A stretch of DNA of 61,865 nucleotides from a virus (IMGVR_UViG_3300027747_000005:1-61865); one strand, 5' to 3'; numbered from the stretch's first letter, positions 32,363 through 61,865 are shown. A program made the numbers and translations. The notes: generated by a model not told the origin, from the sequence alone.

Positions 32363-32480
32363 CGACATCCGATCACGGGCAGGTGGCACTAGGTGACTAG
32401 GTCAAATATAGGTGACCAAGTCCAGCCGCCTGCCCGCGTTCCGGTGCCGTTGTGGTTCCGGTTTCTTTCAGGAGGTGCGT

Positions 32481-33272
32481 ATGGTCGCAAGATCACGCAC
32501 CGTCAAGCCACTGGGTGTCATTCTGCACCGTGGTCAGTCTGCCTTCGATGGTTCGCCCTACGTGGTGATCATGCCACTGGGCAAGCCATCCAAGAATGGC
32601 AAGACGGGCAAGATGCTTCAGACCTACATTCTTAGGTCACATGTGCATCCAGTGGTGGCGGTGCGCAATGGGGGCGACGTTGGTATCTGCAACGATTGCC
32701 CTATGCGTGGTCTGGATGGACGCAAGCGGTTCCGTGCTTGCTATGTGAACGTCGGGCAGGGGCCGACAATGGTCTACGATGCGTTCAAGCGTGGGCGCTA
32801 CGTTGACTATGTTCCCTCCCTGCATGATGAATTCATCCGGGGCCGTAAGGTGCGGTTCGGCACCTACGGAGAGCCGGTGCTTATTCCCTTGGAGTTGGTG
32901 CAGCATCTGGTCAGCCTTTCATCGGGCTGGACGGGCTACACCCACCAATGGGCGAACCTGCACTTTGCAGGCTATCGGCAGTATCTCATGGCCAGTGTGC
33001 ATGGTCTTACGGGGCCGTGGTCACGGGAGCATGCAAAGTCTCTTGGCTGGCGCACCTTCCGCACCAAGCGTGCAGGTGAACCGGCTGCGGGTGAGATTCT
33101 CTGCCCAGCCTCTCTGGAAGCTGGCAAGCGACTGACCTGCGAGCAGTGCCGTCTGTGTGACGGTGCCGGTACTCGCAAGGCCGGTCTGCAGATGGTGGAT
33201 ATCTACATACCTGGGCATGGTGGCAAGGCGATTATGTCTGCCGTTGCCAACCTGCCCATTCTCCAAGGATGA
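32481..33272 (+). CDS. Conserved phage protein with Cys-rich motifs (DUF7227-like)
   Basis: 263 residues from ATG 32481, which follows CAGGAGGT. The order LGVILHRGQSAFDGSPYVVI, YILRSHVHPVVAVRNGGDVG, CNDCPMRG, CYVNVGQGP, SGWTGYTHQW, ILCPAS...RLTCEQCRLCDGAG marks a family widespread in phages and plasmids (DUF7227 if I recall the number correctly). The clustered cysteines suggest metal binding. Biochemical role unknown. First large gene of the early operon. Confidence 0.8.
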   Translation: MVARSRTVKPLGVILHRGQSAFDGSPYVVIMPLGKPSKNGKTGKMLQTYILRSHVHPVVAVRNGGDVGICNDCPMRGLDGRKRFRACYVNVGQGPTMVYDAFKRGRYVDYVPSLHDEFIRGRKVRFGTYGEPVLIPLELVQHLVSLSSGWTGYTHQWANLHFAGYRQYLMASVHGLTGPWSREHAKSLGWRTFRTKRAGEPAAGEILCPASLEAGKRLTCEQCRLCDGAGTRKAGLQMVDIYIPGHGGKAIMSAVANLPILQG

Positions 33273-33280
33273 GGTGTGAT

Positions 33281-33409
33281 ATGTGGGCCGTTCGTACCGC
33301 GCGTCGATATCTGGCGGTGTTCAATGACCGCTGGGAAGCAGAGCAGTGGTTGCGTGATTGGGTGTCCATCCATGGGCACCGCGCCTACCTCGCAAGAACG
33401 GAGGTCTGA
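33281..33409 (+). CDS. Small early protein
   Basis: 42 residues: MWAVRTARRYLAVFNDRWEA, EQWLRDWVSIHGHRAYLART. GAGGTG sits just upstream of the ATG. Helical and Trp/Arg-rich; no family recognised. Same operon as the amidotransferase pair. Confidence 0.6.
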   Translation: MWAVRTARRYLAVFNDRWEAEQWLRDWVSIHGHRAYLARTEV

Positions 33410-33410
33410 C

Positions 33411-33548
33411 ATGCGCAAGACCCCAGGCGCTAGCAAGGCGCATGGTAGCTGCGGCTACTGGAAACATCTGCGGAAGTTCGGCAAGCGGCTCGCCAACAAG
33501 GCGGGCCGTAAGTTTTTCCGGCGGGATTTGTCCCGGCTGAGTGAGTAG
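33411..33548 (+). CDS. Small basic early peptide
   Basis: 45 residues: MRKTPGASKAHGSCGYWKHL, RKFGKRLANKAGRKFFRRDL. Strong ribosome site (GGAGG). Very Lys/Arg-rich, resembling short basic peptides common in phage early regions. It lies close to the amidotransferase and amidoligase genes, so it is a conceivable substrate; that is speculation. Its 3' end contains the -35 and spacer of promoter copy 4. Confidence 0.6.
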   Translation: MRKTPGASKAHGSCGYWKHLRKFGKRLANKAGRKFFRRDLSRLSE

Positions 33549-33554
33549 TAACAG
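33528..33554 (+). promoter_or_regulatory. Repeated early promoter, diverged copy 4
   Basis: TTGTCC, 15-base spacer, TAACAG, followed by TGTCAACCAA, which matches the sequence after copy 2. It lies at the end of the small basic gene and could drive 33579-34004 and the genes beyond. Confidence 0.45.
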
Positions 33555-33578
33555 TGTCAACCAACAACGGAGGGTTCA

Positions 33579-34004
33579 ATGTCGATCCGACAACGGTTCA
33601 ATGCGTGGATCCAAGGCAAGGTGGATGCCGCCGTGGCAAGGTACATGCCGAGCGGCGAGGCGGTGATTATCAGCGCCATCAACGGCATCGACCGGAAGGA
33701 TTTGGCGTGGCATGTGGATACGCCTGACTTCCGCAAGAACGTCGCCCAGTTTGTGAAGGAGGAGCTAGAGGGTGACATCGATACTGACGAGATCGTCCGC
33801 AAGGTAGTGCGGGAGATCGATGCGTCAGAGGTTGCGTCCTACATGGACACTTCCGATGTCGCATCCAATCTGGACATCGAACCCTCTGAGATCGCAGAGC
33901 GTGTGCTGGATGACCTGGACATGTCCTCGCTGGCCGAGGAACTGGACTACGACAAGCTGGCAGTGGCACTGGTGTGCAAGTTGAAGGAAGCGTTGACTAA
34001 CTAA
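33579..34004 (+). CDS. Acidic helical early protein
   Basis: 141 residues starting MSIRQRFNAWIQGKVDAAVA after a GGAGGG ribosome site. The second half is strongly acidic, with repeated short helices (DTDEIVRKVVREIDASEVAS, LDIEPSEIAERVLDDLDMSS). No family recognised. Immediately upstream of the amidotransferase gene. Confidence 0.6.
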   Translation: MSIRQRFNAWIQGKVDAAVARYMPSGEAVIISAINGIDRKDLAWHVDTPDFRKNVAQFVKEELEGDIDTDEIVRKVVREIDASEVASYMDTSDVASNLDIEPSEIAERVLDDLDMSSLAEELDYDKLAVALVCKLKEALTN

Positions 34005-34021
34005 CCAAAGGGGTGATGCGT

Positions 34022-34810
34022 ATGTGTCTAGCAATCTACAAGCCTTCTAAGGTAAAGCCTGACTGGGATGCCTTGGAGGAGGGGTTTAAGAGCAACTCGC
34101 ACGGTGCGGGGTTTGCTGTGGTGATGGATGGTTCCATCCAGATCCACAAGGGGTTCTTCAACTTCGATGACTTTGCCCGTGCGTACATGCCTTTGGAGGA
34201 CAAGCAGGCGCTTATCCACTTCAGGCTGGCTACGCACGGTGCGCGTGATGCTGAGATGTGCCACCCGTTTAGCGTGACCGATGAGACGGCCATGATCCAC
34301 AACGGCATCCTTAACATCAGCACCGATGACGACAAGACCAAGTCTGATACGTGGCATTACGTGGAGTACATCCTCAAGCCGCTAGCTGAGCGGGACCGGG
34401 ACTTCTACTCCGACAATTCCATCCGGTTCCTGGGTGAGTCTGCGATCAGCGGCTCCAAGTTCTGCTTCCTGCGAGCAGACGGTGACTGGCAGATTTGGAA
34501 CAGCGAGGACGGTCACTGGGGTGGCGATGCGTGGTACTCCAACCGGAGCTACGTCAAAAGCATCGGGTACACGCGGTGGCCGAAAGAGAAAGAGAAGGAA
34601 GAGACGCCGGTAGACCTGCATGCTTACGAAGCTGCGGACGAGAGCCGGTACTACCACTCGCTCACCACATCTGCGAAGTGGGAGTACGAGGACTTGCTAG
34701 AGGATGGGTACACCGCAGCTGACCTGGACGACTATATCCAGAACGACGGGGTGATTGCGTTGCGTTATCTGAATCGACAGCACAGCAAGTACGACGAGGA
34801 GAATGTATGA
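34022..34810 (+). CDS. Class II glutamine amidotransferase
   Basis: 262 residues if translation starts at ATG 34022 (AGGGG eight bases upstream). This places the catalytic cysteine at position 2 (MCLAIYKP), as in all N-terminal-nucleophile amidotransferases. GFAVVMDG, LIHFRLATHG, CHPFSVTDETAMIHNGILN are the glutaminase signature. It releases ammonia from glutamine for a partner enzyme. The gene overlaps the amidoligase start by 4 bases, so the pair is translationally coupled and the amidoligase is the likely partner. Confidence 0.85.
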   Translation: MCLAIYKPSKVKPDWDALEEGFKSNSHGAGFAVVMDGSIQIHKGFFNFDDFARAYMPLEDKQALIHFRLATHGARDAEMCHPFSVTDETAMIHNGILNISTDDDKTKSDTWHYVEYILKPLAERDRDFYSDNSIRFLGESAISGSKFCFLRADGDWQIWNSEDGHWGGDAWYSNRSYVKSIGYTRWPKEKEKEETPVDLHAYEAADESRYYHSLTTSAKWEYEDLLEDGYTAADLDDYIQNDGVIALRYLNRQHSKYDEENV

Positions 34811-35973
34811 CCACAACAAATACTGAGGCGGAAGTCCTTTGCGAGGACGGGGAAACCCGTCCTCTTTCTGTTTGTGTGCAGGATCATGCCGGTCGATGGA
34901 ATGATACCGATGACTGCGTCGATATTGAAGGCAGCTACTACAACTTCAACGATGCCCTCATCTGCTATGTGGAGTCGCGTGATGAGTGGTTCCTGCGGGA
35001 AGACTGCATGCGTGTCGGCTCTGATTGGGTGCATGAGAACGATGCCTTTCACTGCCACATGTGCAACCGCGGTGGCCATGACGATGACTCTTGCACCGAT
35101 CCCGATGGCGGGACACTCTGTCGGCGGTGCTATGAGTACAACGTCTGCAACTGCGCAAATTGCGGCGACGAGCAGTGGTGCGACGAGAGCAACCTGGATG
35201 AGGACGGGTACTGCACGGATTGCGCCGAGCCGCCTAGTCTGATCTCCGGGTACAGCGACAGGTCTGCCAACCGTCTGAAGCCCGAGACAAAGGACAAGCT
35301 GCGGTTCGGTGTGGAGCTGGAGGTGGAGGGATACGAGTCTGCCGAGCAGGCAGCGGAGTACATCCGACAACACCTGCCCACTACCTACTGCACGCTCAAA
35401 AGTGACGGTAGTTTGGGCGAGGCTGGCGTGGAGATTGTGACAAGGCCGGACAGTATCGCAGTCCACAAGCGTATGTTCGGTGCGCTGTTTGCTGATTCTC
35501 CCGGCAAGGCGTTGTCTAGCTGGACAAATGGACGGTGCGGCATGCACGTTCACATCTCCAAGGATGCCCTGTCTCAACTGCAGATCGGCAAGATGTTGTG
35601 CTTCCTCAACGAGCCTGCTGCTGAGAATTTCATCAGCAAGGTCGCTGGTCGCAGGCCGTGCAGCTGGTGCAAGGTACACAAGAAGAAGCTGACCGATGTG
35701 CGGAAGGAGCATGACCGCTACACCGCGCTCAATGTGACCAACCGTCACACCGTAGAGGTGCGCATCTTCAAAGGCACGCTGGCCGAGGCTGGGTTTATGA
35801 AGAACCTGGAGTTTGTGCAGGCATTGGTTGAGTTCACTGCACCTGCGAGCCGGTCAATCTCGCAGGCTACATCGCACCGTGCATTCTGCGAGTGGCTCCC
35901 CAAGAAAGCCTATCCGCACCTGCATGCGTTTCTGGTTGCCAAGGGTTTCATTCGTCGCCGCAATGCGGCATAA
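34807..35973 (+). CDS. Amidoligase (COOH-NH2 ligase, glutamine-synthetase-like)
   Basis: 388 residues. The C-terminal two thirds carry the amidoligase signature: RFGVELEVEGYE, CTLKSDGSLGEAGVEIVTRP, CGMHVHISKDALSQLQIGKM, RYTALNVTNRHTVEVRIFKG. The N-terminal region (about 80-140) has a dense set of Cys/His pairs (CHMCNRGGHDDDSC, CRRC, CNCANCGDEQWC, CTDC) that should bind zinc and may hold the substrate. Comparative genomics has linked these ligases with class II amidotransferases, which is the arrangement here. Likely reaction: ATP-dependent amide bond formation on a peptide or small molecule. Confidence 0.82.
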   Translation: MTTTNTEAEVLCEDGETRPLSVCVQDHAGRWNDTDDCVDIEGSYYNFNDALICYVESRDEWFLREDCMRVGSDWVHENDAFHCHMCNRGGHDDDSCTDPDGGTLCRRCYEYNVCNCANCGDEQWCDESNLDEDGYCTDCAEPPSLISGYSDRSANRLKPETKDKLRFGVELEVEGYESAEQAAEYIRQHLPTTYCTLKSDGSLGEAGVEIVTRPDSIAVHKRMFGALFADSPGKALSSWTNGRCGMHVHISKDALSQLQIGKMLCFLNEPAAENFISKVAGRRPCSWCKVHKKKLTDVRKEHDRYTALNVTNRHTVEVRIFKGTLAEAGFMKNLEFVQALVEFTAPASRSISQATSHRAFCEWLPKKAYPHLHAFLVAKGFIRRRNAA

Positions 35974-39118: not shown

Positions 39119-39188
39119 GACGATGGACTTTCTAATCGGTGGCACTGGCGTTCTGCTGCTGTTGTGGTGGTCTTCGGGAGGTCGCTGA
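39102..39188 (+). CDS. 28-residue membrane peptide
   Basis: ATG at 39102 follows GAGGAGGTG and encodes MIAMSETMDFLIGGTGVLLL then LWWSSGGR. The good ribosome site and single hydrophobic helix support it. It ends two bases before the serine recombinase start. Confidence 0.4.
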   Translation: MIAMSETMDFLIGGTGVLLLLWWSSGGR

Positions 39189-39190
39189 CC

Positions 39191-39964
39191 ATGCTGTATG
39201 GATATGCCCGTGTTTCTACAGACAAGCAGGAGAACTCAGCTGATGCCCAGGCTATACGCCTGCGGGCCTACGCTGAGCAGTCGGGCGTGGAGTTCGGTGG
39301 CGTGTTCGTTGACGAGGATCAGTCGGCCTTTAAGATCCCCCTGCATAAGCGCAGGCAGGGCAGGGTGCTATGGGACAAGCTGAAGGCCGGTGATGTGGTG
39401 GTCTTCTGTACGTTCGACCGTGTGTTCAGGTCGGTGCTGGATGCGGCGCAGACTCTAGCCAAGTGCAAGGAGCTTGGCATCGGGCTGAAGTTTCTGGACA
39501 ACAGCATGGATGTGATGACCAGCCAAGGGGAGTTGTCATTCAACATCCTGTCTACCGTTGCGCAGTACAGCAGTCAGATCGCAGGCCAGAGGCAGCGGGA
39601 GATCCAGTCCTACCTGCGGTCAGCCGGTCGCCCGTATGGAAAGTTCAGGCCGTACGGCTGGCAAGCCAATGGGAAAGCGTTCGTTCCATACCCAGCCGAG
39701 CGTGAGATCGGTGACATGGTGGTGGCCATGCGGCGTGACGGCAAGCCGTTCACCGCCATCTGCCTGCACCTGTGCAAGAAGGAACTGCGCAAGCCACCCA
39801 ACAAGAAGGGTGTCAGGGGGTACTACGGCCTGTCCGACACAGTGGCTCTGCATCGGGCAGCTGCAGCTGGATATCCAAAGCTCCCGCCAAGGTTGCCGCA
39901 AGCGCAGTGGCACGCCGAGATGCAGCGCGTAGAGAAATCTCATGCGACTCAGCCAGCGCTCTGA
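39191..39964 (+). CDS. Serine recombinase (resolvase/invertase family)
   Basis: 257 residues from ATG 39191, preceded by GGGAGGT. YGYARVSTDKQENSADAQAI has the catalytic serine at residue 9. LKAGDVVVFCTFDRVFRSVL carries the conserved arginines, and a LDNSMDVMTSQGELSFNILS segment is the usual dimer/E-helix approach. The C-terminus is short and lacks the large recombinase domain, so it is resolvase/invertase-sized. It could resolve dimers or invert DNA. The last 152 bases overlap the opposite-strand sigma gene. Confidence 0.85.
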   Translation: MLYGYARVSTDKQENSADAQAIRLRAYAEQSGVEFGGVFVDEDQSAFKIPLHKRRQGRVLWDKLKAGDVVVFCTFDRVFRSVLDAAQTLAKCKELGIGLKFLDNSMDVMTSQGELSFNILSTVAQYSSQIAGQRQREIQSYLRSAGRPYGKFRPYGWQANGKAFVPYPAEREIGDMVVAMRRDGKPFTAICLHLCKKELRKPPNKKGVRGYYGLSDTVALHRAAAAGYPKLPPRLPQAQWHAEMQRVEKSHATQPAL

Positions 39965-40379
39965 GAGTCTTGCCGTTGATGAACCTGTCGGTGGCTAGCT
40001 CCTGCTCCCACTCAGGGAGATCAGCTATGGCCAACCGGATGTGGTCAACGTGATCGAACTCTGGCAGCAGGTCGGCCGCCTCTTCTAGCGTGATGCGAAC
40101 TTCCCCTGGCTGGCGGGCTAGCTTCTTGATCGCTTTGTACATCGCGTTCAGCACAGCCCGTGCGAAGTATGCCTTTGGGTATGGCAACCTCTTTTGATCG
40201 TAGGTTCGGGCAGCTTTGACAAGCGCCAGATACCCTTCGCTTTGCAGGTCTTCGACCAGCACGGATCGCTGCCACCCCGGTCGGTTCTGCAGGAAATACT
40301 TTGCGAGTATCTGCGCCAGCGGCAGGTACTCAACGACTAAGCGTTGACGCTTGGCCGAGAGCTTCAATCTTCTTGTCAT
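39813..40379 (-). CDS. Phage RNA polymerase sigma factor
   Basis: 188 residues. VVEYLPLAQILAKYFLQNRP, VLVEDLQSEGYLALVKAART and PKAYFARAVLNAMYKAIKKL form sigma-70 region 2. LPEWEQELATDRFINGKTLR and ALAESHEISLRAASRRATAL form region 4 with its helix-turn-helix. It would direct host RNA polymerase to phage promoters, perhaps the repeated sequences described here. It is the last gene of its operon and overlaps the serine recombinase end by 152 bases on the opposite strand. Confidence 0.78.
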   Translation of the reverse strand: MTRRLKLSAKRQRLVVEYLPLAQILAKYFLQNRPGWQRSVLVEDLQSEGYLALVKAARTYDQKRLPYPKAYFARAVLNAMYKAIKKLARQPGEVRITLEEAADLLPEFDHVDHIRLAIADLPEWEQELATDRFINGKTLRALAESHEISLRAASRRATALAATLAGALDIQLQLPDAEPLCRTGRSTP

Positions 40380-40557
40380 GCTGGTTCAGGCGAACCTCAT
40401 GTTCCTCAATGGTCTGGCGCAGTTCGTCCAGCATGCGGGGCAATGACTCCACGCTGCTAGCTATGACTGCGACCTTGGCATGCAGGCTGAAAGCCCACGG
40501 GACTACCGCTGCGGCAACCGAAATGCCCAGCATCCACAGTTCTGTTTCAGGCGACAT
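40330..40557 (-). CDS. Holin-like / XhlA-type membrane protein
   Basis: 75 residues. An N-terminal hydrophobic helix (WMLGISVAAAVVPWAFSL) is followed by a coiled coil (MLDELRQTIEEHEVRLNQHD, KKIEALGQ). This topology is known from small phage membrane proteins near lysis genes. It overlaps the sigma gene by 50 bases and lies in the protease/membrane protein block. The lysis role is inferred. Confidence 0.6.
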   Translation of the reverse strand: MSPETELWMLGISVAAAVVPWAFSLHAKVAVIASSVESLPRMLDELRQTIEEHEVRLNQHDKKIEALGQASTLSR

Positions 40558-40786
40558 CGTTCCCCCTAACCAGTGCGATCAACATTAGTCCCGCGTACGG
40601 GTGCAGCTGCCCTTCTTCCACATGCAACTTAATCATGCGTGTGGCTTTGAAGGCTTCGGTGTCGGGGTATCTGTACATATGAGTCTGCCCGTTGTAGCGG
40701 GCTAAGACTTCAAAGCGGACATCGCTTCCAGCTTCAGATGCTCTAGGCTTGTTGGGGGTTCTTTGAAAATCCATTTGGCTAGCCAT
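40547..40786 (-). CDS. Small unknown protein
   Basis: 79 residues from ATG 40786 (alternative ATG at 40774); neither has a clear ribosome site. FEVLARYNGQTHMYRYPDTE, AFKATRMIKLHVEEGQLHPY looks like a compact alpha/beta domain. It overlaps the genes on both sides. Confidence 0.5.
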   Translation of the reverse strand: MASQMDFQRTPNKPRASEAGSDVRFEVLARYNGQTHMYRYPDTEAFKATRMIKLHVEEGQLHPYAGLMLIALVRGNDVA

Positions 40787-41007
40787 GCACTGATGAGGTT
40801 GACGATGATGGGGATGAGGATCATTAGCAGGATCGATCCGCATTCCTGGTGACGCGCGCGGAAGGTGCTGCGAATCTCCTTGCGCCATGCCTTCATGTCT
40901 GGGTTGGCCGTGGCGATGGCGATCAGAGCCACCTCTTCGCCGTGCTTGGACATGCGGGCAGTGCCCGTCTCATCCGCACACCGCTGCGCTATTTGATTGG
41001 CAAGCAA
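40702..41007 (-). CDS. Small membrane protein
   Basis: 101 residues from TTG 41007, chosen because AGGAG lies eight bases upstream; ATG 40953 is an alternative. One strong transmembrane segment (ILLMILIPIIVNLISAWLAK) is near the C-terminal third, with a basic helix before it. Part of the protease/membrane block; function unknown. Confidence 0.55.
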   Translation of the reverse strand: MLANQIAQRCADETGTARMSKHGEEVALIAIATANPDMKAWRKEIRSTFRARHQECGSILLMILIPIIVNLISAWLAKWIFKEPPTSLEHLKLEAMSALKS

Positions 41008-41231
41008 TCTTTGCACTCCTTCAGCACAGACTTGGTGCGACACAGGCAGTCAGGCGGGCAGGGGCAGTCGGTCACATGGCCGTCGCCGTGCGTGATCTTC
41101 CCGTTCTTGCATGCGCCACAGCACTTGGACTTGGGCGCGGCGTAGGTGGTGACAACGTACGCTGCCTCCACTGCGATGCGTTCAGGGAATGACGGGACGG
41201 GGAACAGCAATGAGAAGATGATTGAGATCAT
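40989..41231 (-). CDS. Cys-rich exported small protein
   Basis: 80 residues starting with ATG 41231, which overlaps the papain-like gene stop (ATGA). A hydrophobic N-terminus (MISIIFSLLFPVP) precedes KSKCCGACKNGKITHGDGHV, DCPCPPDCLC and CKDC. This CxxC-rich pattern with GDG and CPCPPDC is common in phages, usually next to lysis-like or peptidase genes. Probably secreted or membrane-attached; role unknown. Confidence 0.65.
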   Translation of the reverse strand: MISIIFSLLFPVPSFPERIAVEAAYVVTTYAAPKSKCCGACKNGKITHGDGHVTDCPCPPDCLCRTKSVLKECKDCLPIK

Positions 41232-42175
41232 GTCTGCAGTAATCCGATGGTGCCGTAGTCGGGCAGCTTCTGAGGGGGGAACCCATCGACATTGCCGTAC
41301 GCATAGCAATCGCCACCGCGGATGCAGACTTCCCAGTCTTCAGCTTTGGTTACGATCATCCCGGGCACCCACGGCGGGAGGTCGGTTGGCCATTCTTTGG
41401 GAGGCTGGTTCCACGCACCCCAAGAATTTTGGATGAAGAACACATCGAACGGCCAGAACTTGCGGGTGAAATCCATACCGACCGTGGCCATTGAGTGCGA
41501 CCAGCCGCCTGCCGTGCGCGGATGGATGTGGTCTTTGCTGGGGTGCTGCGACCAAGAGGCGAACTGCCCAGAGGCTATCGCGTATCCGTTGAACAAAGCA
41601 TCCACCGCATCGCTCATCCTGGTCAGCTGTCGGATGATGCCAACCTTATGGTTTCGGCACAGACTTCTGACGGCCTCTGGCACACCACTGCCACCCCAGT
41701 TTGTTCCGATTGTGCTGTTGTATTTTGTAAGATCGACTGGGTCGTACTTCTTTCGGAGGAGATAGCCAGTCTCGTTAACAAACATGGCCGCTCGCGCGGG
41801 CGACATACCTTCGCCAGAGTGACCGCGCCCACCGTACGTGGGTTCCGTTGCGCTTCGGACAACAAAACTTTCCGGCCGGTTCTCAATGCAGATTTGCGTG
41901 GCCCTGGTCGTATCGATAGCGTTGCGCGAGCAATGCGAGGTGCAGTCCCCAGTCGTCTGAACCTCAGTGAAAGACAGGGGATCTAGCTTTTGCGTGTACG
42001 CCCACAGCGCGGCACGCTGGCCTTCTCCGCTACCCATTGTATTCGGCTCATAATACACCGACTGTTTCTGCGAGTCACCAAACAGGGCACGTTCCCTCGG
42101 ACTGTCAACATAACCTTGCAGCCCCGCTTCGTATGCAGCCAATGGCTGGAACACGTTGTCGTTTTTGTCAGCCAC
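41228..42175 (-). CDS. Papain-like cysteine protease (C1A family)
   Basis: 315 residues. Q73-TTGD-C78 gives the oxyanion Gln and nucleophile. GGWSHSMATVGMDF places the histidine at 227, and FFIQNSWGAWN places the asparagine at 250, in the canonical order C-H-N with the typical NSWG motif. No clear pro-domain or signal peptide is seen. It is unusual for a phage and shares an operon with a subtilisin and several membrane proteins. Possible roles: cell-envelope degradation at lysis, or processing of phage or host proteins. Confidence 0.8.
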   Translation of the reverse strand: MADKNDNVFQPLAAYEAGLQGYVDSPRERALFGDSQKQSVYYEPNTMGSGEGQRAALWAYTQKLDPLSFTEVQTTGDCTSHCSRNAIDTTRATQICIENRPESFVVRSATEPTYGGRGHSGEGMSPARAAMFVNETGYLLRKKYDPVDLTKYNSTIGTNWGGSGVPEAVRSLCRNHKVGIIRQLTRMSDAVDALFNGYAIASGQFASWSQHPSKDHIHPRTAGGWSHSMATVGMDFTRKFWPFDVFFIQNSWGAWNQPPKEWPTDLPPWVPGMIVTKAEDWEVCIRGGDCYAYGNVDGFPPQKLPDYGTIGLLQT

Positions 42176-42821
42176 AGAATGCCTCCTGAGAAGTTGCTCT
42201 CAGATAGCTTGCTGCCGTTTCCAAGACAGCCGGATTATCTCTTGCGCTGCCCAGCATTCGGTTGCAAAGATTGCACAACGTGCCGCGCACCACTCCAGTG
42301 GCGTGGCAGTGATCGATGTTGCGGTCACGCGCAGTGGAGAACGATGACCCGCATATGTCGCATGCTTCTACGCTGCACATCTCTCGCACTTCTTCCAATG
42401 TCAGTGCATAAAGCTGAGCGCGGTTGCGGATGCTTGCGCAGTCCTTGCATTCTTTTCGGATGCCGGACACTCTCTTAGTTGCGCGGGGGAATTCCGATGC
42501 TGGCTTTTCCGTGCCGCAGTCGCAGCACACTTGCGACACCACCGAAACTTCGTAATGAACCGCTGACTTGCGTGCGCTGGTGCAGAGCTTGCACTCTTTC
42601 TGAAGGCCGCTTTTCCGCCCCTTCGACCGATTAAATTCTGCCGCTGACTTGGTCTGCTTGCACGCCGTACAGCGTTGTTCGCTCACAGTAACAGCGATGT
42701 TTTTTGCTACTGCCTTATGATTGCGGCACGCCTTGCAGGACGGCTGGAATCCATTCCGGCACGGGCTGTAGTCAGTCAGCGGCTTCGCGATGCCGCAGAC
42801 GGTGCAAGACCTATCACTCAC
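42168..42821 (-). CDS. Endonuclease VII-like nuclease with three zinc ribbons
   Basis: 217 residues. Three successive ribbons are present (CTVCGIAK...CKAC, CTACKQTK...CKLC, CCDCGTEK...CKDC). The endonuclease VII core follows: CDICGSSFSTARDRNIDHCH, GVVRGTLCNLCNRMLGSARD. The family usually has one ribbon or none; three suggests internal duplication and extended DNA contact. It would cleave branched DNA. It sits between a membrane protein gene and the papain-like gene, overlapping both. Confidence 0.85.
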   Translation of the reverse strand: MSDRSCTVCGIAKPLTDYSPCRNGFQPSCKACRNHKAVAKNIAVTVSEQRCTACKQTKSAAEFNRSKGRKSGLQKECKLCTSARKSAVHYEVSVVSQVCCDCGTEKPASEFPRATKRVSGIRKECKDCASIRNRAQLYALTLEEVREMCSVEACDICGSSFSTARDRNIDHCHATGVVRGTLCNLCNRMLGSARDNPAVLETAASYLRATSQEAFCG

Positions 42822-43203
42822 TTTGCTTGGCGACCTCCCGGCATGCGGCTGCGATTTGGTTCACTAGCGAGGCGCTAAGTGGTGCATCATCTAGTGGGAA
42901 CTTGTCGGCCATCACCTTCTCAACGGCAACGTCCAGGCCAGCGTACTTGCCTCGCATGTCGGACGCAGCCAGCTTCAGGGTGTTGACATGCAGCTGTCGC
43001 CACATGCCCACGGTGCTGATGAGTGTGCCGTTGTCCTTCTCGGTTACATCGGCCAGCGATAGGTAGATGCCTTTCAGATGAGATCGATCTGATCGGCTAG
43101 CACCTATCAACGCAGTAGCTACTGGGCCTTCGGGTTTCTTGGAGGCGGGGAGGAATGACAGGGCCGCAACCAGGACTGCGACGATTACGGGTAGGTGTTT
43201 CAT
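42814..43203 (-). CDS. Exported protein with N-terminal signal/anchor
   Basis: 129 residues from ATG 43203, which overlaps the upstream stop (ATGA). MKHLPVIVAVLVAALSFLPA is a signal or anchor. The rest is helical (HLKGIYLSLADVTEKDNGTL, MRGKYAGLDVAVEKVMADKF). Its N-terminus shares IVAVLVAALxxLP with the neighbour at 43200-43421, as if duplicated. Family seen near phage lysis or peptidase genes; function unknown. Confidence 0.6.
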   Translation of the reverse strand: MKHLPVIVAVLVAALSFLPASKKPEGPVATALIGASRSDRSHLKGIYLSLADVTEKDNGTLISTVGMWRQLHVNTLKLAASDMRGKYAGLDVAVEKVMADKFPLDDAPLSASLVNQIAAACREVAKQSE

Positions 43204-43421
43204 GCCTTCACCTGCAGTAGGGCGGATAGAAGTGCGTTGCATGCGGTGATGACGGCGGCATCAGCGTTTGCTTCCTTCACTTCTACGATGGCTTCGATCT
43301 GCTTTAGGATCGACGGCTTGGACTTGCTGATGGACGGGAGTCTGATTGCATGGAGGGGGAGGTACGTGAGTGCCGCCGCTACCAGCACAGCGACGATGGC
43401 GAGGATCTGAACTGTCGTCAT
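43200..43421 (-). CDS. Small membrane protein
   Basis: 73 residues. N-terminal transmembrane helix (ILAIVAVLVAAALTYLPL), then a short helical C-terminus (KPSILKQIEAIVEVKEANAD). The start overlaps the subtilisin stop (ATGA), so it is coupled to the protease. It could be a holin or spanin-like partner; inferred from position. Confidence 0.6.
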   Translation of the reverse strand: MTTVQILAIVAVLVAAALTYLPLHAIRLPSISKSKPSILKQIEAIVEVKEANADAAVITACNALLSALLQVKA

Positions 43422-44359
43422 AGAACTTTGGCTCCGGGGATGAAGATGGTTACGCCGCCAATGTTTGCCTGCATGGTGTAGTTCATCAGCTTGTGCGGAT
43501 CGACCAAGCCCCAGCCGTAGACGTTGTCTCTGCCCTGTTCGCCAACGTCCTTGCAGGTAGTGGCTAGTGCCTTCATCACATCGCTGTGGTTGACGGTGCG
43601 ATCCAGCTTGTGCTGCGCGCTGATGTACAATGCCAGCACACCGGAGACAAATGGTGCGGCCATGCTCGTCCCACTCACAGTTGCATAGCCATCGTTCAGC
43701 CAGCAGCTTGTGATGTCCTGCCCTGGTGCGGCGACTGCAATCTCCTTGCCGCGGCTGGAGAATTCACAGGCAGCGCCGTGGCTATCCACCGCACCAACAG
43801 CAATCGTTTCCTGGTAGGCAGCAGGGTAGTTCACAGAACCCCCGTCGTTACCCGCGGCACAGACAACAATGATCCCGGCTGCAGCTGCCTCGCGGATCGC
43901 AGTGTGTACCCCATCGTCCGTGCGGCTAGAGCCAAGGGACATGGAGATGATGTTCACCTTTGCTTCGGTGGCATGACGCACAGCTTGCGTTACCCACTCG
44001 TTGCTCCCCATCCCGCTGTGTCCTAGCACTTTGAGGGAGAGGATTCGGGAGGCAGGAGCAATGCCCTTCGCCAGCCCGTCACGGGCGGCGATGATGCCAC
44101 TCACATGGGTGCCGTGCCCCAAGGTGTCATGCGCATCGGAGTCGCTTGTGAAGTTGCGGTAGTCGATGACGGCTGCGTCTAGGGCAGGGTGCTTGGCAAC
44201 ACCACTGTCGATCACGGCCACCGTCACTCCCTCGCCCTGCGACTTCTGCCAGAGGGAAGGGATTCCGTATGAGCAGACACCCCAATCAACTCCGTGCTGG
44301 AGCGCGCGCGGTGCGTCTAGGTTAACCCGATAGGGTGGAAGGTGGACGAACCCGCTCAC
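43418..44359 (-). CDS. Subtilisin-like serine protease (S8 family)
   Basis: 313 residues with a full catalytic triad: AVIDSGV (D51), GHGTHVSGI (H82) and GTSMAAPFVSG (S232), plus the oxyanion Asn in CAAGNDGG (N171). No signal peptide or pro-domain is visible, so it may act inside the cell or be released by a holin. Overlaps the next membrane protein gene by 4 bases. A phage subtilisin beside a papain-like protease is unusual. Confidence 0.9.
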   Translation of the reverse strand: MSGFVHLPPYRVNLDAPRALQHGVDWGVCSYGIPSLWQKSQGEGVTVAVIDSGVAKHPALDAAVIDYRNFTSDSDAHDTLGHGTHVSGIIAARDGLAKGIAPASRILSLKVLGHSGMGSNEWVTQAVRHATEAKVNIISMSLGSSRTDDGVHTAIREAAAAGIIVVCAAGNDGGSVNYPAAYQETIAVGAVDSHGAACEFSSRGKEIAVAAPGQDITSCWLNDGYATVSGTSMAAPFVSGVLALYISAQHKLDRTVNHSDVMKALATTCKDVGEQGRDNVYGWGLVDPHKLMNYTMQANIGGVTIFIPGAKVL

Positions 44360-44715
44360 TTATCTTCCTGGCCCGCGGCCAACGCTTTGAGAATGGACAG
44401 GACAATGGGCAGGATCACATCGACCAAGAGCTTCCAATCCACTCCCAGTGCAGCGAACTCTGCGCCAGCACCAAAGGCCATGGCCTCATAGTTCTGGTCT
44501 TCATAGTCCTCGTCATGGAAGCGGTGCTTGGTCAGCGCCTTGGGTGCAACGGCCTGGGCCTCCAACACAGGGATCAGAATCCGTGCGATGGAATCAACCA
44601 GCGCCCATTGCTCCACGTACGGAAGATCCTTGCGCCAAGACTTGGCGATCTCCACAACCTTCAGCAGGACGGCTTGGTTGGCGAGCAAGAACTTCACCAC
44701 TTTCATATTAACCAT
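44356..44715 (-). CDS. Unknown protein upstream of the subtilisin
   Basis: 119 residues from ATG 44715, preceded by GGGAGA. Hydrophobic N-terminal helix (VVKFLLANQAVLLKVVEIAK), a charged centre (KHRFHDEDYEDQNYEAMA) and a hydrophobic C-terminus (LLVDVILPIVLSILKALAAG). It may be membrane-associated. Stop overlaps the protease start (ATGA). Confidence 0.55.
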   Translation of the reverse strand: MVNMKVVKFLLANQAVLLKVVEIAKSWRKDLPYVEQWALVDSIARILIPVLEAQAVAPKALTKHRFHDEDYEDQNYEAMAFGAGAEFAALGVDWKLLVDVILPIVLSILKALAAGQEDK

Positions 44716-45094
44716 GATCTTCTCCCGTATGGTCATTGATTGCGATTGCCACAATGGCGTGGCCTGCGATGTCAGCGAGTGTCTCTCTAATAGCTAGTGT
44801 CCGGTCGGAGCCGATCATCCCCCGGAGGCGGCGGCACTTCTCCCCGATGCGGGCCAGCTGGTAGACCCACGGTTCGATGCCGTCCTCTGCAACGCCTAGC
44901 GCGTTCTCTAAGGGGCTTTCGTCTGGGCACCCGTAGTACCCCCGCTTCCGGCTCAGAAGCCGCCATAGCTCAACGCAGACGGGTAGGTAGGGATCGTCGG
45001 GGAACATGGCCAGAGCCTCACCAAGTGCGCTCTCGGCAAGCCTTAACGATTCGTCCGAACTCTGCCCAGAAGGAAGGGTGGTGGTAGGGGTCAT
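44708..45094 (-). CDS. Possible MazG/DUF1599-like phage protein
   Basis: 128 residues. YYGCPDESPLENALGVAEDG, WVYQLARIGEKCRRLRGMIG and TLADIAGHAIVAIAIN resemble the YG.pe.nf...KiaRl...Di.GYa.la layout of phage nucleotide-metabolism-like helical proteins. The similarity is loose, so the function is uncertain. A copy of the minus-strand motif lies in its 3' part. Confidence 0.5.
   Translation of the reverse strand: MTPTTTLPSGQSSDESLRLAESALGEALAMFPDDPYLPVCVELWRLLSRKRGYYGCPDESPLENALGVAEDGIEPWVYQLARIGEKCRRLRGMIGSDRTLAIRETLADIAGHAIVAIAINDHTGEDHG
44783..44802 (-). promoter_or_regulatory. Minus-strand repeated motif ahead of the protease block
   Basis: Reads GGACACTAGCTATTAGAGAG, sharing GGACACTAGCTA with the portal copy. 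It is inside a gene but 68 bases before the start of the block with the subtilisin, so it could be an internal promoter. The coding constraint there weakens the case. Confidence 0.3.
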
Positions 45095-61711: not shown

Positions 61712-61865
61712 TAGGCGTATCCGTTGAGGGCGCGAGAGTAGGCTGCGGGCGAGCCGAACTTGGCCAGGATGTCTTCACGCTGCTGCGCCGCCTGTTGCTT
61801 TTGGCGGTTCAATGCAGCATCCTGAAGTGCCCAATCATTCTGTTGAATCTGGGCTTGGTTGCGGA
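61711..61865 (-). CDS. Gly/Asn/Gln-rich virion protein, 3' part
   Basis: The C-terminal end of the gene that begins at 1199. The frame is open to 61865 and stops with TAA at 61711-61713; bases 61739-61865 duplicate the start of the window. On the closed genome both parts form one 408-residue protein. Confidence 0.8.
   Translation of the reverse strand, partial: RNQAQIQQNDWALQDAALNRQKQQAAQQREDILAKFGSPAAYSRALNGYA
61739..61865. repeat. Terminal direct repeat, copy 2 (circular overlap)
   Basis: Identical to 1-127. Removing one copy closes the genome at 61,738 bp with no break in the reading frame. Confidence 0.9.

Follow-up and report, generated by a model that had tools for sequence, protein, structure and literature searches.

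Here we describe a minus-strand gene cassette in a viral genome of 61,865 nucleotides (IMGVR_UViG_3300027747_000005:1-61865; this whole stretch is referred to as the window) that encodes two intact proteases, one papain-like and one subtilisin-like, among small membrane and cysteine-rich proteins. We propose, with a probability of roughly 0.45, that the papain-like enzyme provides the catalytic activity of a module directed at the envelope, most likely one that lyses Planctomycetota-type hosts in place of a peptidoglycan hydrolase. An initial annotation of the window, made from the sequence alone, had suggested that the two proteases could replace an endolysin or act in host takeover. The first idea gains support for the papain-like enzyme because no peptidoglycan hydrolase was found above cut-off, its partners are membrane or secreted proteins, relatives are fused to transmembrane (TM) segments, and its gene occupies a lysis-like position in the phage-like plasmid pPLIM01 and in the viral contig L027. 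The subtilisin gains no such support: it lacks a signal peptide, its leader resembles that of intracellular subtilisins, and 27 of the 60 papain-carrying contigs do not have it. Host takeover or another role inside the cell suits this enzyme better. The two enzymes are:

41228-42175, minus strand: papain-like cysteine protease of 315 amino acids (aa) with a GTG start, identified by its triad (C78/H227/N250), AlphaFold2 fold and ratio of nonsynonymous to synonymous polymorphism (pN/pS).
43418-44359, minus strand: subtilisin-like serine protease of 313 aa with a GTG start, residues D50/H81/N170/S231 and an HLPPY leader.

Both proteases are genuine, intact and under purifying selection, with pN/pS values against two relatives of 0.10-0.13 for the papain-like gene and 0.09-0.21 for the subtilisin. 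In an alignment of 30 sequences, C78 and H227 of the papain-like protein are invariant and N250 is at least 90% conserved, in agreement with the catalytic residues first assigned to it; C82 was considered as the nucleophile and rejected, as it is not conserved. Structure prediction, which the initial annotation had recommended for the proteases and which we ran on the papain-like one, gave a confident papain fold (predicted local distance difference test (pLDDT) 85.7, predicted template modelling score (pTM) 0.87). The best match in a fold search was xylellain, a bacterial C1 cysteine protease (PDB 3ois; Z 21.5, root-mean-square deviation 3.0 over 231 residues), with cathepsins also among the closest folds and Z scores of 17-21 to many C1 enzymes. 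Xylellain shares the Cys-His-Asn triad, but identity is only 16%, and xylellain is neither phage-borne nor accompanied by the partner proteins g142 and g106 described below. The NSWG motif is also of the C1 type. The oxyanion Gln of C1 enzymes is expected six residues before the catalytic Cys; a Gln lies five residues before it in window-type papains and six before it in the L029 and L045 types. The protein has no match in Pfam, PHROG or NCBIfam and no nucleotide or protein match among 50,697 phage records. As its family profile reaches PDB entries at E=0.02-0.04 at best, we call it papain-like by predicted fold and make no claim to C1 family membership. BFVD also contains uncharacterized Peptidase_C1 proteins from uncultured phages that have a papain fold, at 10-17% identity.

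The initial annotation had seen no lysozyme, amidase or other peptidoglycan hydrolase in the window, and this was borne out by Pfam scans of its main open reading frames (ORFs). In dedicated scans of 25 viral records, namely the window and 24 other papain-carrying records, none of nine hydrolase families passed its cut-off. Amidase_2, Phage_lysozyme and SLT were scanned in these viral records without pPLIM01; M23, M15_3, NlpC/P60, GH108, Amidase_3 and CHAP were scanned in pPLIM01 as well, again with no match. One GH108 match, in the record G017, fell below cut-off. With all of Pfam, no hydrolase appeared among the best 25 of 26 families listed for the related genome G019, which also bears a 127-base terminal repeat, or among the best 25 of 39 listed for pPLIM01. 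The same absence, together with the gene context, would fit an ordinary endolysin in which a papain-fold peptidase severs the cross-links of peptidoglycan, in the manner of NlpC/P60 and CHAP enzymes; clan CA includes wall peptidases, and Planctomycetes have lysozyme-sensitive peptidoglycan. We regard such an endolysin as unlikely, although it is the strongest competitor, given that the fold search placed true C1 proteases nearest, that the NSWG motif is C1-type and that the NlpC_P60 and CHAP profiles give no match.

Apart from the window, 60 viral contigs carry papain relatives, and in 33 of them a subtilisin lies 0.4-1.2 kilobases upstream. The survey of related phages that the initial annotation had called for thus finds the gene set kept in these 33 contigs, 30 of which also carry a convergent serine recombinase. 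The remaining members of the series, with their occurrence, are:

44356-44754, minus strand: g132, a small, tail-anchored holin candidate with a C-terminal hydrophobic helix (33/33 subtilisin-type contigs).
43200-43421, minus strand: g73, an N-terminal TM helix and a short soluble domain (27/33).
42814-43242 (probable start 43203), minus strand: g142, a signal or anchor helix and an all-alpha domain (33/33).
42168-42821, minus strand: endonuclease VII, an optional member (Pfam E=1e-18; 13/33).
40989-41309 (probable start 41237), minus strand: g106, Cys-rich with a hydrophobic N-terminus (32/33, and 18/27 of the contigs without subtilisin).
40702-41043, minus strand: g113b, one strong TM helix (17/33).
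40547-40888, minus strand: g113a, soluble and conserved, overlapping g113b in another frame (32/33).
40330-40557, minus strand: g75, an N-terminal TM and coiled coil with weak XhlA/holin similarity (32/33).
39813-40379, minus strand: sigma-70-like factor, closing the series (Pfam Sigma70_r2 2e-07; 31/33).

Genes of the g106 type are present in 50 of the 60 papain contigs. In the 27 contigs without subtilisin, some of which are short enough that the missing gene may lie beyond the contig end, the papain again neighbours small TM proteins plus secreted or Cys-rich proteins. A strong hydrophobic segment is found in all copies of g132, g73, g142, g113b and g75 and in no copy of endonuclease VII, g113a or the sigma factor, in the window and relatives alike. 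The membrane and Cys-rich proteins of the initial annotation stand, as does its endonuclease VII. Its holin-like coiled-coil protein, g75, does have the N-terminal TM and coiled coil, but similarity to holins is weak (PHROG holin E=0.005, XhlA E=0.09). For g142, the predicted structure (pLDDT 89.7) shows a helical domain preceded by an anchor helix, with no Foldseek match at E≤0.001 and a best Z of 6.9 on a second look. Its place just before the papain in the fusions had suggested a split papain propeptide, an idea left unsupported when the all-alpha model matched nothing. As separate observations, g113a and g113b (40547-41043, minus strand) overlap by 187 bases in different frames, both protein-conserved in many relatives, and cassettes that otherwise resemble each other may have or lack the endonuclease VII gene between g142 and the papain, some with a related gene at another site.

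In two phages, natural fusions place the papain behind one TM segment. The L028 fusion is a single ORF of 651 aa that starts with an N-terminal TM and continues with a g142-like domain, the papain and a CPPC domain; the g142-like domain was called from the alignment with L053, and the thioredoxin call for the CPPC domain is weak (E=0.27). In L053, a single 913-aa ORF combines a TM with a g142 domain, recognized by its profile at E=5e-24, the papain and a g106-like Cys-rich motif. Papains with their own N-terminal TM are encoded in L029, L045, L048, L028, L053 and pPLIM01. A secreted thioredoxin-like protein follows the papain in L026, a 170-kilobase phage contig, and a g106 relative in L060 has a lipobox. 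Two further features of these loci were noted. An intein (L053 5233-6021; Hint match E=3e-4) sits exactly at the papain catalytic Cys, and inteins favour conserved active sites; in L026 (1531-4688), a secreted trypsin/HtrA-like protease precedes the papain and a YiiX-like protein is also encoded.

The only cultivated relative came to light when two distant papains were used as tblastn queries on 72,556 plasmids: both returned the same sole record, pPLIM01 of Planctopirus limnophila DSM 3776. This is a complete phage-like plasmid (plasmid-prophage) of 37,010 bases, and its papain, which has an N-terminal TM, matches the family profile with an hhalign probability of 99.5%. The gene order is TM/lipobox protein, TM-papain, secreted protein, HNH, terminase, portal, ClpP-type protease and capsid. 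The TM-anchored papain, a homologue of the window enzyme, is thus flanked by the TM/lipobox protein on one side and the secreted protein on the other (PLIM_RS21795-RS21805), but no subtilisin is among the annotated pPLIM01 genes and the upstream protein is not demonstrably g142, as a profile comparison of the two failed. A lysis block just before the terminase is familiar from lambda-like phages, and by this analogy the place of the papain before HNH and terminase would be a usual spot for lysis genes. The papain of L027 directly precedes the terminase. Like the holin-endolysin-spanin cassettes of tailed phages, whose place before HNH-terminase is matched in pPLIM01, the papain modules combine small TM proteins with one enzyme gene and, in one relative, a lipobox protein; they differ in that the enzyme has a C1-protease fold and that no peptidoglycan hydrolase of the known families was recognized.

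From this relative we infer a Planctomycetota-type bacterium as host of the window phage; a search of genome contigs for hosts with two papain queries found no relative. The link partly suits the host with a protein-rich envelope that the initial annotation had envisaged, with the reservation that the sacculus of Planctomycetes contains peptidoglycan and is sensitive to lysozyme (PMC4432640).

Tethering, the secreted and lipobox partners and the differences in accessory genes among phage groups would also suit surface remodelling or superinfection exclusion, with a membrane-tethered protease trimming receptors or envelope proteins of the infected cell. This would leave the phages without an identified lysis gene, and the pre-terminase position in pPLIM01 and L027 better suits late lysis genes, so we consider it rather improbable. 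Still less probable is a virion-associated or maturation role, in which the proteases would cleave head proteins or leave the virion together with the DNA, as the occurrence of cassette genes within the head module of L029 and L060 might suggest. Separate capsid proteases are present in papain-carrying phages, of the S78 type in two L029-type records and of the ClpP type in pPLIM01; TM and signal segments recur, and the window set is distant from structural genes. A purely intracellular function of both enzymes in host takeover or counter-defence, to which the lack of an export signal in the window papain, the intracellular-type leader of the subtilisin and the existence of other phage-encoded subtilisins all lend something, is very unlikely, given that the N-terminal TM of papain relatives and their secreted partners point outward.

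For the subtilisin alone, however, an intracellular takeover or counter-defence role is the best reading. The Pfam Peptidase_S8 match spans the full profile (E=7e-55) and, when numbering begins at the GTG codon, the triad consists of D50, H81 and S231, with N170 as the oxyanion residue; the enzyme is thus complete, as the initial annotation had stated, with its residue numbers (D51/H82/S232) one too high. The best solved relatives are intracellular subtilisins (PDB 7y6m, 7xr8, 6f9m, 2x8j), which share with the window enzyme the lack of a signal peptide and a short N-terminal leader with a PY motif. No N-terminal hydrophobic segment was found either, and an N-terminal LPPY is kept in the subtilisins of all 33 contigs. 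Intracellular subtilisins have a LIPY/F leader that blocks their active site (PMC6220982). With Pro at position 2, LPPY falls outside the published pattern, [LVI]-[IFLV]-P-[YFH], and we therefore name the enzyme only intracellular-subtilisin-like, for its apparent way of working, and claim no membership of the group, from which it also differs in being phage-encoded and part of a conserved cassette. The absence of a signal peptide, the inhibitory-type leader and the lack of the gene in many papain phages indicate that the subtilisin probably acts inside the cell and not in lysis.

Several observations weigh against a lytic role for the papain. The window papain has, like others of its clade, neither a TM nor a signal peptide of its own, and the same holds for those of L026, L027, L060 and L065. 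In the window clade the cassette closes a replication-side operon and is not next to structural genes (1-32000 in the window). In L029 and L060 cassette genes lie inside the head module. The YiiX-like protein of L026 (E=0.001) could be a wall amidase, controls rang in eight of the nine hydrolase scans, leaving GH108 without a ringing control, and a hydrolase of an undescribed family could still be encoded. At 25-29% identity to pPLIM01, the host link is remote. Finally, because the planctomycete sacculus is lysozyme-sensitive (PMC4432640), a protease that cuts nothing but wall proteins may fail to lyse these cells.

On the proposal that the papain drives lysis, we infer how export, substrate, holin and host might fit together. 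The small TM proteins g132, g73, g113b and g75 would be inner-membrane proteins, one or more of them acting as a holin. Where the papain has its own N-terminal TM, this would deliver it to, or tether it at, the outer face of the membrane; in the window clade it might instead be placed there beside the membrane-anchored partner g142. Together with the Cys-rich or thioredoxin-like partner, g142 could aid papain folding, keep the enzyme inactive or aim it. Once released, the papain would open the cell by cutting peptide links or proteins of the envelope. The subtilisin would be a separate, clade-specific, leader-inhibited cytoplasmic enzyme that serves host takeover or processes another cassette protein.

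The window genome is probably complete, because its first and last 127 bases are identical, as expected for a circular or terminally redundant assembly:

1-127, no strand: direct terminal repeat, left copy, identical to 61739-61865.
61739-61865, no strand: direct terminal repeat, right copy, identical to 1-127.

The whole series, including the sigma factor, spans 39813-44754 on the minus strand, and its ORFs overlap tightly, as first described. It runs from the tail-anchored g132 through the subtilisin, TM proteins, g142, papain, Cys-rich g106 and holin-like g75 to the sigma factor. The label 'late' given to it earlier is not borne out: in the window clade the series closes a replication-side operon and terminates at the sigma factor. 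A serine recombinase gene (39164-39964, plus strand) overlaps the sigma-factor gene tail to tail at its 3′ end, an arrangement kept in 30/33 contigs. Elsewhere, the window carries glutamine amidotransferase and amidoligase genes (32412-35973, plus strand), a pair that is also reported among the auxiliary genes of the planctomycete Phage-ZRK32 (PMC10945688). An Mtd_N (major tropism determinant) domain is found in the structural region, and the window scans gave no reverse-transcriptase match; a reverse transcriptase is encoded in the related genome G019, as is a MoxR-vWA gene set.

The papain-like enzymes form a new family of phage papain-fold proteases, and their natural fusions point to partners. 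We found no description of phage opening of planctomycete cells in the literature searched, and P. limnophila DSM 3776 with pPLIM01, as a cultivated carrier, makes the lysis question testable. It is conceivable, though we put this forward tentatively, that many phages of Planctomycetota-type hosts lyse by a membrane-tethered papain-type protease with secreted redox or Cys-rich partners and no peptidoglycan hydrolase, a previously undescribed protease-based lysis. If this is true, tailed phages can exchange a wall hydrolase for a protease.

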